Part shown: positions 19,202 through 22,594 of the stretch, in pieces
Position numbering within the stretch: the first letter of the stretch is position 1
Layout: every line of letters starts with the position of its first letter
IMG/VR virus record: IMGVR_UViG_3300046777_000040
Coordinates: 1 to 22,594 of that record
DNA from: a virus
Length of the DNA: 22,594 bases
Reading direction: 5' to 3' (one strand)
The notes under the pieces: generated by a model
The model's database searches: none
Told to the model about the DNA's origin: nothing
Seen by the model: only the letters and a program-made list of their open reading frames with translations
Program-made: the position numbers and the translations under genes

Positions 19202-21118
19202 ATGAGCTTTAACGGCAGCGGCGTATTTGTCATCAATTCGGCAGGCCAGCCGGTCGTTGCCAACACGGTTATCTCGTCAACCGTTTTCAACGCTCTGACG
19301 GCTGACCTTGCTACCGGCTTGACCAACTGCATTACCAAGGACGGTCAATCCACGCCCACGGCTAACATCCCGATGGGCAACAACAAGATCACGGGTCTTG
19401 CGGTGGGTACGCTGGCGTCCGACGCCGCTAACCTCTCACAAGTACAGTCCACCTCGGTCAAACTGATCACGGTCAGCGGTGCAGATACCGTTACCGGCAC
19501 GCTTTCGCCTGTCCTTGCGGCGTATGAAGCAGGCCAGATGTTCTATTGGGTGGCCGCTGGCACCAATACCGGCGCTGTCACGCTCAACATCAACAGCCTT
19601 GGCGCAAAGGCGGTCACGCGAGACGGCAGCACGGCGCTAATCGCGGGTGACATCCAATCTGGCGAAATCGTGATGGTCGTCTACGACGGCACGCGGTTCC
19701 AGATGATTAACGCCGCCAACTCGTTCGGCAACACAACAATCAACGGCACCCTGACGGTCACCGGCAACGCAGGTTTCCAAGCCAACGTCAGCATCACCTC
19801 GGCGCTATCGGTCGGTGGCACGCTGACGGTTACCGGCAAATCTGATCTACCGACCGTATCTACCGCCTCCATGAACGCAGCGGTGGCTGTGGTTACCGAT
19901 TTGCGTGCGACCAGCGCCTCTATTACCTCCGCAAACGTCGGCACGGCGGTTATCTCCACAGGAACGGTGACTAACCTCACCGCAACCAGCGCCTCTGTGG
20001 CGTCGGTTAATGCGGGCGTGGCGCTACTGACAACGGCCACGGTTACTAACTTGTCGGCTACCAGCGCATCTATCGCATCGGCCAACCTGACGAACGCTAA
20101 CATTACCAATCTCACGCTCACGGGCGTGTCGGTGGCGTCGGCTAACTTTGGTGTCGCCAACGTCACGGACTTGCGTGCAGCGGGAGCCTCGGTCACCTCT
20201 GCTAATGTCGGCACAGCGGTCATCACGACCTTGACAGCCACGGGAGCCTCGGTCGCATCGGTTAACGTCGGCACCGCAGCGGTTACCCGATTAGATGCTA
20301 CGGGCGCATCGGCTGCCTCCATCAACGCGGGTGTGGCGTTAATCACCACCGGCACGGTCACTAACCTTACATCCACTAGCGCGAGCATCGCCTCGGCTAA
20401 CCTCGGTACGGCCAACATCACGGCGCTGACGCTGACGGGCGTATCGGTCGCCTCGGCTAATGTTGGAGTCGCCAACATCACCGACCTGCGAGCGGCAGGC
20501 GCGTCGGTTACCTCGGCCAACGTCGGCACGGCTGTCATCACCACGCTCACCGCCACAGGGGCGTCTATTGCCTCTGCCAATGCGGGGCGGTTGGATGTTA
20601 CGGCAGCCTCGGCAGCGTCCATCAACGGTGCGGTGGCGCTCTTTACGACCGGCACGGTGACCAACCTCACCTCTACGTCGGCCAGCATCGCCTCTGCCAA
20701 CCTCGGTAACGCACAGGTCACCGGAGCGAGCATCGCATCGGCCAATGTCGCGGCATTGACGGCAACGGGAGCGAGTATCGCCTCGGCCAACATTGGCACG
20801 GCGGTGATCAGCACGATTGCCTCGGTATCTATCGGCTCGGCCAACATTGGTACAGCGGCAGTTTCCACGCTGACCGCAACCAACGCATCTATCGCCTCGG
20901 CAAACGTGGCAGCGATGCGCTTTATCGGCGCATCCTCTGGATACGTCGGCTTTATCGCTCAAACATCAGCAGGCTCTGCAACGTATACTTGGCCCAATGC
21001 CGATGGCATCAATGGGTATGTGTTGCAAACCAACGGATCAGGAAACTTGTCTTGGGTCGCACAATCTGGCGGCGGTGGGGGCGGTGGCTCCAATGCCTTC
21101 GCTTGGTTTATCTCTTGA
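19202..21118 (+). CDS. Tail fibre with pentapeptide-repeat-like shaft
   Basis: A 638-residue fibre. Residues 1 to about 170 form the attachment part, with ITKDGQSTPTANIPMGNNKI and GLAVGTLASDAANLSQVQS, phrases typical of phage fibre N-termini. Residues about 175-218 are a beta-rich transition. Residues 219-576 are a five-residue repeat shaft. Residues about 577-620 carry GYVGFIAQTSAGSATYTWPN, then ADGINGYVLQTNGSGNLSWV, a common fibre C-terminal module. Seven glycines (21068-21088) and a short tail NAFAWFIS close it. SD AGGAG (19190-19194) overlaps the preceding stop. The protein is almost free of charge and cysteine in the shaft. It probably projects from the short tail and contacts the host surface directly or carries the next adhesins. 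Confidence 0.9.
   Translation: MSFNGSGVFVINSAGQPVVANTVISSTVFNALTADLATGLTNCITKDGQSTPTANIPMGNNKITGLAVGTLASDAANLSQVQSTSVKLITVSGADTVTGTLSPVLAAYEAGQMFYWVAAGTNTGAVTLNINSLGAKAVTRDGSTALIAGDIQSGEIVMVVYDGTRFQMINAANSFGNTTINGTLTVTGNAGFQANVSITSALSVGGTLTVTGKSDLPTVSTASMNAAVAVVTDLRATSASITSANVGTAVISTGTVTNLTATSASVASVNAGVALLTTATVTNLSATSASIASANLTNANITNLTLTGVSVASANFGVANVTDLRAAGASVTSANVGTAVITTLTATGASVASVNVGTAAVTRLDATGASAASINAGVALITTGTVTNLTSTSASIASANLGTANITALTLTGVSVASANVGVANITDLRAAGASVTSANVGTAVITTLTATGASIASANAGRLDVTAASAASINGAVALFTTGTVTNLTSTSASIASANLGNAQVTGASIASANVAALTATGASIASANIGTAVISTIASVSIGSANIGTAAVSTLTATNASIASANVAAMRFIGASSGYVGFIAQTSAGSATYTWPNADGINGYVLQTNGSGNLSWVAQSGGGGGGGSNAFAWFIS
19856..20929 (+). repeat. Pentapeptide-type repeat array of the fibre shaft
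   Basis: From 19856 to 20815 the protein divides into 64 consecutive five-residue units with no phase break (residues 219-538). A three-residue unit (IAS, 20816-20824) interrupts, and seven more units follow (20825-20929). Typical units are ASIAS (seven times), ANVGT, AVITT and LTATG. The first and third residues are mostly small or aliphatic and the fifth is mostly Ser, Thr or Gly. Repeated blocks are 15, 20 or 25 residues long. Four units make 20 residues, one turn of the four-sided helix known for pentapeptide-repeat proteins. Confidence 0.88.
19991..20620 (+). repeat. Two 315-bp super-repeats within the shaft
   Basis: Units 6-26 (19991-20305) and 27-47 (20306-20620) of the pentapeptide array correspond at a distance of 21 units. 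Within them, 20171-20245 and 20486-20560 encode the same 25 residues, yet 18 of the 25 codons differ at synonymous positions. Agreement is strongest in the middle and weaker at both ends. Confidence 0.75.
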
Positions 21119-21129
21119 GGTAACTAAAA

Positions 21130-21930
21130 ATGGGCATTCTTGTACTTGACGCAACTACCAAATCCATCGTCGTCGCCATGTCGGGCGCGGCGGCCACGAC
21201 CAACCCTGATTTCACGGCTGCATGGGCCGATGACACGGGATCGGCGTTTACCGAGGGCGCATCAGACGGTGCGCTAAACGGCACCAGCAGCGTCACCTTG
21301 GTGGCTGCGCCGGGGTCATCTACCCGCCGCGTCATCAAAAACATCACCATTGAGAACAAGGACACGGCAGCCGTCACGCTGACCATCTCCTACAACAACA
21401 ACAGCACCTTGCGAACTATTGCCAAGGTCACGTTGAACGTAGGCGACACTTGGACAACAGACGGCACGTTTGACACCAACGGCTCGTTTAAGCAGACCCT
21501 TGGCAGCATCAACCTGTCCTCGGGCGTCACCGGCACGTTGGGAACGGCCAACGGCGGCACAGGAACAACGACCGGCAGCCTCGCAAACTGCACCGTAGAT
21601 GGCACTAACCCGGTTGGTTACCGCAACATCCCGCGCTCGGGATCGGCCAAGACCACCTCGTACACTCTGGCTACCGGCGATGTGGGTGAGTTTATTGAAG
21701 TCGGATCGGGCGGCTCGGTGACGATTCCTGACGCCACGTTTGCTATGGGCGATGTTGTGTCGGTGTTTAACAACACTTCGGGCGCTATCACGATTACTTG
21801 CACGATTACGACGGCGTATATCGCGGGTACGGATGCGGACAAGGCGAGCGTGTCATTGGCTACAAGAGGCGTGGCGACAATACTGTTCTTATCAGGTACG
21901 GTTTGCGTTATTAACGGCAACGTGAGTTAA
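21130..21930 (+). CDS. Second fibre-like or tail-tip structural protein
   Basis: A 266-residue beta-rich protein with an SD-like GAGGT (21117-21121) overlapping the fibre stop. Residues 1-120 contain a domain with SSTRRVIKNITIENKDTAAV, then TLTISYNNNSTLRTIAKVTL, which reads as a beta-sandwich. The middle has LGTANGGTGTTTGSL, a 'GGTG' hinge typical of phage tail fibres and collar proteins. The C-terminal 90 residues (GYRNIPRSGSAKTTSYTLAT, then GDVVSVFNNTSGAITIT) match a small beta domain common at the tips of phage fibres. It contains no catalytic motif. It probably assembles with the fibre before it or with the glycine-rich adhesin after it. Confidence 0.85.
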   Translation: MGILVLDATTKSIVVAMSGAAATTNPDFTAAWADDTGSAFTEGASDGALNGTSSVTLVAAPGSSTRRVIKNITIENKDTAAVTLTISYNNNSTLRTIAKVTLNVGDTWTTDGTFDTNGSFKQTLGSINLSSGVTGTLGTANGGTGTTTGSLANCTVDGTNPVGYRNIPRSGSAKTTSYTLATGDVGEFIEVGSGGSVTIPDATFAMGDVVSVFNNTSGAITITCTITTAYIAGTDADKASVSLATRGVATILFLSGTVCVINGNVS

Positions 21931-21933
21931 GCC

Positions 21934-22594
21934 ATGAGCGGCATTATGAGTTTGCTGCTCGCTGCCAAAGTTGCGGGCGGCGGAGCGTTTACCGAATACA
22001 AGATTTTTACCGCATCGGGTAACTGGACCGCCCCGACCGGCGTGACGCAAGTTGAATATCTTGTCGTTGCCGGTGGCGGCGGCGGTGGAAATAACGGCGG
22101 CGGCGGTGGAGCGGGAGGGTTTCGTACTGGAACCGGATTATCTGTTACTGCAGGAACTAATTATTCAATAACTGTTGGAGCGGGAGGCGCTGGAGGAACA
22201 ACCGCCGCGCCAAGTTATGTTGATGGCGTAAAAGGTAGCGATTCCGTATTCAGCACTATTACGTCTACTGGAGGCGGTTTTGGCGGCGGCGCTATTGGCA
22301 GTAATTCTGGGAATGGCGGCGCAGGCGGTTCAGGCGGCGGCGGCGGCTGGGGCGTTTCTAATACAACTGGCGGGGCTGGTAACACGCCAAGCACTTCTCC
22401 ATCTCAAGGAAACAACGGAGGAAATGGACAAACTGGTAGCACCGCTGGCGGCGGAGGCGGTGGCGCAAGCGCCGTGGGTGGCAATAATTCAAGTGGAGTT
22501 GGCGGCTCCGGTGGCAACGGAACCGCATCAAGTATTAGCGGCTCTTCTGTTACTTACGCTGGTGGCGGCGGTGGTGGTGGCGGCGGCGCTGGCC
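21934..22594 (+). CDS. Glycine-rich tail adhesin, truncated by the window end
   Basis: Open from the ATG at 21934 to the last base, at least 220 residues, with no stop. After MSGIMSLLLAAKVAGGGAFT, the segment YKIFTASGNWTAPTGVTQVE and then YLVVAGGGGGG is the hallmark of the glycine-rich fibre-tip domain. This is followed by GAGGFRTG, then NYSITVGAGGAGG, and runs of Gly, Ser, Asn and Thr. Proteins of this kind stack polyglycine helices and display variable loops for receptor binding. The start has only a weak SD; the in-frame ATG at 21946 is an alternative. From about 22130 the non-glycine codons become A/T-ending (TTA, ATA, TAT, TCA), unlike all genes before, suggesting exchange. The C-terminal end lies outside the window. 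Confidence 0.85.
   Translation, partial: MSGIMSLLLAAKVAGGGAFTEYKIFTASGNWTAPTGVTQVEYLVVAGGGGGGNNGGGGGAGGFRTGTGLSVTAGTNYSITVGAGGAGGTTAAPSYVDGVKGSDSVFSTITSTGGGFGGGAIGSNSGNGGAGGSGGGGGWGVSNTTGGAGNTPSTSPSQGNNGGNGQTGSTAGGGGGGASAVGGNNSSGVGGSGGNGTASSISGSSVTYAGGGGGGGGGAG

Follow-up and report, generated by a model that had tools for sequence, protein, structure and literature searches.

The fibre gene and its setting

The window, i.e., the whole stretch of DNA analysed here, is 22,594 bases long and represents a single virus record, whose gene content points to a tailed and probably short-tailed phage. Upstream of the fibre gene it codes for a large terminase, a portal, a major head protein and a virion structural protein, and further genes encode an amidase-like protein and a ParB-methyltransferase fusion. 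In this last protein (24-1238, + strand), whose gene lies beside that of the terminase, a ParB-like N-terminal domain is fused to an N6/N4 DNA methylase (PF02195 and PF01555). The closest portals are those of the Bradyrhizobium phage ppBjS10J-1, the Stenotrophomonas phage BUCT555 and the Myxococcus phages Mx8 and Mx9, among others, with the nearest cultured relatives showing 28-38% identity; it is from these portal relatives and the gene set that we would assign the virus to the short-tailed phages.

At the right end of the record lies the gene for the tail-fibre protein P0001 (19202-21118, + strand; 638 residues), which was recognized from its ORF, from 62 related loci in viral contigs and from relatives that are S74-bearing fibres. 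Its N-terminal domain (residues 1-171; 19202-19714, + strand) recurs at 71-100% identity in 61 of the 68 distinct shaft ORFs described below, with another N-terminus in two of them (L103 and L112). Proteins annotated as tail fibres in Pseudomonas phages match at residues 78-169, and phage BUCT555 matches at residues 1-163; this domain is presumed to mediate attachment to the virion. It is followed by a pre-shaft region of TLTVTG-type beta repeats (residues 172-223; 19715-19870, + strand), common to 45 of the 68 relatives, and by the shaft proper (residues 224-571; 19871-20914, + strand), which is delineated as 69 pentads in blocks of 15, 20 or 25 residues by a unit-by-unit parse, the block spacing and the grammar of the blocks. 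The shaft is dominated by alanine, threonine, serine and valine (together 66%) and has just 10 charged residues in 348. The distal C-terminal region (residues 572-638; 20915-21115, + strand), ending in GGGGGGGSNAFAWFIS, is matched in only 26 of the 68 relatives, the others ending in S74 chaperones or other tips, and presumably forms the tip or a part that anchors it. Given the conserved N-terminus and the variable C-terminal region, the shaft therefore joins a conserved base to exchangeable tips. The pentads give the DNA a base pattern of period 15, and a 400-residue open frame antisense to the shaft (19681-20883, - strand), in which this pattern is mirrored, is in all likelihood an artefact.

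Phase and block grammar of the shaft

Scans of viral sequences with the whole of P0001 recovered 62 loci and those with a shaft alignment 79, leaving 68 distinct shaft ORFs after the removal of duplicates. They contain 4,034 units in total, a figure that, like the tallies of off-phase pieces below, does not stand for independent events, as the ORFs are related. The five-residue phase of the window's shaft is confirmed. The parse of P0001 scores 368, whereas none of 500 composition shuffles exceeded 22.5; the score is a measure of regularity rather than of independent significance because the unit profile was trained on the same shaft family. An untrained measure, the autocorrelation of hydropathy, gives +0.42, +0.50, +0.42 and +0.50 at lags 5, 10, 15 and 20, and lags 1, 4, 6, 9, 11 and 14 have values of roughly -0.33 to -0.42. 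Residue identity reaches 37% at lag 20, 28% at lag 25 and 21% at lag 15, whereas lags other than multiples of five give 5-18%. In 2,000 pooled units, position 1 is mainly A (0.62) or L (0.22), position 2 is N, S or T, position 3 is V (0.34), I (0.25), A (0.25) or L (0.09), position 4 is T, A or G, and position 5 is S, T, G or N. Positions 1 and 3 are of the inward type and positions 2, 4 and 5 mostly polar, as in the pentapeptide-repeat proteins (PRPs).

These results bear out much of the preliminary description of the locus. It had reported 64 in-phase pentads over 320 residues, and the in-phase run ahead of the break spans residues 219-538, which is exactly this number when the weak unit VSTAS (219-223) is counted. 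It had named a single exception to the phase, a three-residue unit at 20816-20824, and the parse places the sole off-phase element, IAS before VSIGS (residues 539-541; + strand), at just this point, with six pentads after it. Its account of positions 1 and 3 as aliphatic or small and of position 5 as Ser, Thr or Gly agrees with the pooled units, and its statement that the length changes are whole numbers of pentads is borne out by the block lengths given below. The break is no random slip, because the same kind of element recurs in relatives: an IAS or LGA element precedes VSIGSANIGT, and in L011-L014 it does so elsewhere in the array. Off-phase pieces inside the shafts proper of the relatives have lengths of 3, 8 or 13, all of which equal 3 modulo 5, and pieces of 11, 12 and 14 residues occur in four ORFs where the parse overruns the shaft into the distal domain. 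One subgroup (L111, L118, L121, L136 and others) has its pentad arrays broken by a 13-residue pair, SIADxTGVVTLNS ... GTASMTIDDATGK.

Cutting at the motif xSxxS[AIVM]N divides the window's shaft into blocks of, in order, 25, 25, 20, 20, 20, 20, 25, 20, 20, 20, 15, 25, 15, 15, 18 and 20 residues, and yields 332 distinct inter-anchor segments across the relatives. Lengths of 20 (158 segments), 25 (129) and 15 (30) dominate, nine segments together have 10, 35, 40 or 45 residues, and the six whose lengths (13, 18 or 53) are not multiples of five are all 3 modulo 5. The 15-residue type reads ASIAS ANIGN LxxTG, the 20-residue type ASIAS ANVGT AVITT LTATG and the 25-residue type ASVAS xNAGV ALITT GTVTN LTATS. 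Thus, in the 317 distinct blocks of these three lengths the first two pentads and the last are common, and zero, one or two pentads stand between them. The second pentad varies with block length, with N-A-[AGN]-[AV] found in 81 of the 129 25-residue blocks, in 17 of the 158 20-residue blocks and in none of the 30 15-residue blocks, and the extra pentad of the longest type conforms to [AG]T[VIFA]T in 118 of 129 cases. Each block has an invariant Asn, although this residue is part of the anchor motif used for cutting. Such a grammar is predicted if the block is the unit, and not by a uniform helix with four pentads per turn. The earlier conversion of 64 units into 16 turns assumes uniform units and is not supported, the array being made up of 15-, 20- and 25-residue blocks with position-specific pentad types.

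The blocks also carry hydrophobic residues at restricted outward sites. Position 2 of the third pentad is V, I, L, M or F in 64% of the 20-residue and 95% of the 25-residue blocks, as against 0-7% for position 2 of every other pentad in any block. For hydrophobic residues at position 5 of the second pentad the corresponding figures are 30% and 73%. Beyond these two sites outward hydrophobics amount to at most 10%. We infer that the single patch per block may form a line of contact between chains, but the stripe could serve other contacts.

Relatives, selection and the trimeric chaperones

Over its 348 codons the shaft differs from each of seven near relatives by about 46-53 synonymous and 7-13 non-synonymous codons, and is under purifying selection. 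Tandem Repeats Finder detected no DNA tandem repeat in the array, and the seven copies of ASIAS have seven different DNA spellings; the lack of a detectable tandem repeat and the varied codon spellings of the same pentads rule out a recent DNA-level duplication as the origin of the array. The fibres also vary in length: between L008 and the window's fibre the difference is a single clean insertion of 60 residues, and 318 of the 441 aligned gaps among 13 fibres are multiples of five, while the others include the break, the distal end and noise in the alignment.

No instance of the same shaft was found in cultured phages by tblastn, a search in which BLAST masks low-complexity sequence; its weak matches (E 0.6-10) comprise one Bacillus phage tail fibre and pentapeptide proteins from phages of Caulobacter, Rhizobium and Rheinheimera. 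Five PHROG families lacking an assigned function (16267, 31265, 12514, 7713 and 15350) match weakly within the shaft (E 1.9e-7 to 2e-3), which suggests that similar shafts exist in catalogued phage proteins, with composition perhaps contributing to these matches. A further weak match to the shaft, with 53% in its best segment, lies on L064, a contig from a Planctomycetota MAG that is possibly a prophage or a binned phage contig.

The evidence for a trimer comes from the distal ends of the relatives. Seven of them (L033, L122, L139, L107, L105, L081 and L098) score above the curated cut-off for Peptidase_S74 at the C-terminus; their N-terminal domain and type of shaft are those of P0001, the ORF of L107 being cut at its start, and their tails are coiled-coil-like. 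In the T5 protein pb1 and the K1F endosialidase the S74 chaperone forms a trimer (PMC4690869), and because relatives of the shaft end in this chaperone we read the window's fibre as probably trimeric too. In contrast to the S74-chaperoned fibres and tailspikes, P0001 itself ends short, and no Peptidase_S74 was found in it, leaving it outside the S74-type fibres as such. To our knowledge, the shafts of the T5 and K1F proteins are not pentad-periodic.

Structural modelling and candidate folds

The AlphaFold2 model of full-length P0001, built from 14 sequences, had a pLDDT of 43.7 and was set aside as unusable; Foldseek returned nothing for it at E <= 0.001. A fragment of 114 residues spanning five blocks (residues 285-398; 20054-20395, + strand), run as a single chain on 51 in-phase rows, attained a pLDDT of 91.7 and a pTM of 0.82, with its strands (6-23, 26-43, 46-63, 66-83 and 86-103) breaking every 20 residues to give a beta-solenoid of this period. 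The alignment, being made from in-phase repeats, favours a solenoid, the five models range from 63.6 to 91.7, and the 25-residue block at the fragment's end lost confidence. Both runs predict strands for the shaft, repeating every 20 residues. Foldseek matched the fragment to no structure at E <= 0.001 and did not recover the square PRP fold; the best PDB match was the beta-helical C-terminal domain of the cyclase-associated protein (probability 0.90, TM 0.55, E 0.25), with the luminal domain of SV2A, a quadrilateral helix, at TM 0.51 and the PRP 5dns_B low in the list at TM 0.31. A search of BFVD with the same model gave weak matches, none at E <= 0.001. Confident beta-solenoids for repeats are a known failure of AlphaFold2, which assigns a pLDDT of about 90 even to a permuted 20-residue mucin repeat (PMC11795689); the imperfect repeats of this shaft lessen the concern without removing it. 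The fragment model thus hints at a 20-residue coil and says nothing on the number of chains, and this bias, together with the lack of a good solved-structure match, rules it out as proof of a monomeric solenoid.

Taking these strands together, we consider it fairly probable that this phage, itself probably short-tailed, has a homotrimeric tail fibre with the pentads as its shaft, where they would serve as a mostly uncharged beta spacer linking the conserved N-terminus, which would bind the virion, to an exchangeable distal end. Each pentad would supply a short strand and a turn, with positions 1 and 3 directed inward, and three chains would associate along the shaft, trimerization here being carried over from the relatives. 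The likely site of chain contact would be the hydrophobic patch of each block, namely position 2 of the third pentad with position 5 of the second, and gain or loss of 15-, 20- or 25-residue blocks would set the length of the fibre. As to the path of the chains within such a trimer, it is about as likely as not that every chain coils on itself with some 20 residues per coil, as three beta-solenoids side by side, whether PRP-like or not; a triple-stranded beta-fibre with one coil common to all three chains is a serious possibility.

A fibre of this second kind, with three chains in each layer, would resemble the triple-stranded beta-helix of T4 gp5 in principle, with five- rather than eight-residue steps and with blocks as layers holding zero to two extra strand units. 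We regard this version as possible, if somewhat doubtful. The S74 trimer chaperones of the relatives point toward it, as do the fixed ends and optional middle of the blocks, the mostly small interior residues and the near-absence of charge. Like gp5 (VxGxxxxx), this is a repetitive phage shaft of short regular beta units with a recurrent Asn in a trimeric context, taken for this shaft from its relatives; the invariant Asn of each block, albeit part of the cutting anchor, recalls the Asn/Asp ladder on the gp5 surface (PMC4576200). Against it, PDB searches gave no sequence match to gp5 or any other solved trimeric fibre, and the single-chain fragment model is confident. Furthermore, we know of no triple beta-helix with five-residue steps. 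The regular 15-residue triple beta-spiral of the adenovirus fibre and reovirus sigma1, offered earlier as an alternative, is not the pattern seen here: 15-residue blocks make up 30 of 332 segments, and identity at lag 15 is 21% versus 37% at lag 20.

It is rather unlikely that each chain, alone or three side by side, forms the right-handed four-sided pentapeptide helix with four pentads per turn, in which Val, Ile or Ala would replace the central Leu/Phe. The shaft does share with PRPs (PF00805/PF13599; e.g., HetL 3du1, Alr5209 6omx and the designed beta1 4yc5) the five-residue phase, inward-type positions 1 and 3, Asn/Ser at position 2 and Thr/Ser at position 4. The peak of identity at lag 20, the strand breaks of the AlphaFold2 model and the quadrilateral SV2A domain among the Foldseek matches are likewise in its favour. 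Moreover, the side chains at positions 1 and 3 of a pentad add up to 249 cubic angstrom in the 20-residue blocks, close to the 254 of the designed beta1, so that a square coil would be compatible with the packing. PF13599 matches the shaft in register at 22.3 bits (28.1 in the best relative), and solved PRPs, again in the same register, are its sole significant sequence matches in the PDB (best 36.6 bits). However, no curated pentapeptide cut-off is reached, that of PF13599 being 38 and that of penta_Alr5209 (NF052603) 125 against 24.2 bits for the shaft. A shuffle among pentads that preserves position lifts the best PDB match to 55.4 bits and, in one try out of two, leaves a Pfam match of 19.3 bits, whereas after full or within-pentad shuffling there is no Pfam signal, nor, in the within-pentad case, any PDB match. 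As the position-preserving shuffle matches PRPs better than the native shaft, the matches reflect position-wise composition and are ruled out as proof of kinship.

PRPs are defined by at least eight contiguous consensus pentads with a central Leu/Phe (PMC8145042, PMC7337050). In the shaft a central Leu/Phe occurs in 8 of 69 units and never in two successive ones, the position being otherwise V/I in 42 and A in 16, and a single unit fits all five positions of the 2019 consensus. The scarcity of charge, the distinct pentad types of the 15- and 25-residue blocks, the poor fit of the confident model to PRP structures and the setting in a phage fibre with trimeric relatives also separate the two. 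Thus, the shaft resembles PRPs in pattern and, as far as its sequence goes, lies outside the family by definition. Of the preliminary description's PRP proposal, then, the phase, the pattern at positions 1 and 3 and the remark that Ile/Val/Ala replace Leu/Phe have held, and profile matches fall in register; family membership and a four-sided helix of the PRP type are not supported. The HMM search and the monomer prediction it suggested gave, respectively, a sub-threshold match and a 20-residue period with little likeness to PRP structures.

A single-chain beta-solenoid with a coil of roughly 20 residues and a shape other than that of PRPs is improbable to a like degree. The confident fragment model with its 20-residue strands and the resemblance to the cyclase-associated protein's beta-helix argue for it; the lack of any Foldseek match at E <= 0.001, the mucin precedent, the spread of the five models, the solenoid-favouring alignment and the failing terminal block weigh against it. 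That the pentads are a compositional artefact of low-complexity drift with no structural role is scarcely credible despite the four residues that make up two-thirds of the shaft, being ruled out by the strong synonymous excess and by a phase held over about 4,000 units, with the different DNA spellings and the position-specific block grammar also against it.

Phage fibres need long, stable and non-sticky shafts whose length can change without unfolding, and the rule shown by this family is that the five-residue phase is kept, block ends are fixed and whole blocks are added or dropped. We tentatively propose a trimeric fibre built on a five-residue strand unit, either as bundled pentad helices or as a triple beta-helix with five-residue steps, whose length would evolve by insertion of 15-, 20- or 25-residue blocks. 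Neither architecture was found in the solved structures or literature searched, and the literature search returned no paper joining pentapeptide repeats with fibre shafts. A solved fold would either extend the pentapeptide helix to fibres devoid of the hallmark Leu/Phe or yield a new trimeric beta-fibre, which, if true, could be cut to length for protein engineering; the shaft also lends itself to testing how structure predictors deal with repeats.

Two genes adjoin that of P0001 on its downstream side. The next gene (21130-21930, + strand) codes for a protein whose C-terminal half (...ASVSLATRGVATILFLSGTVCVINGNVS) is close to the C-terminus of the shaft fibre of L018 (L018:675-3059), a likeness which suggests that distal domains may be swapped between neighbouring fibre genes. 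The gene after it (21934-22593, + strand), which is cut by the end of the record, encodes a glycine-rich domain (PF21722, E 1.2e-16), and its product is possibly a second receptor-binding protein.
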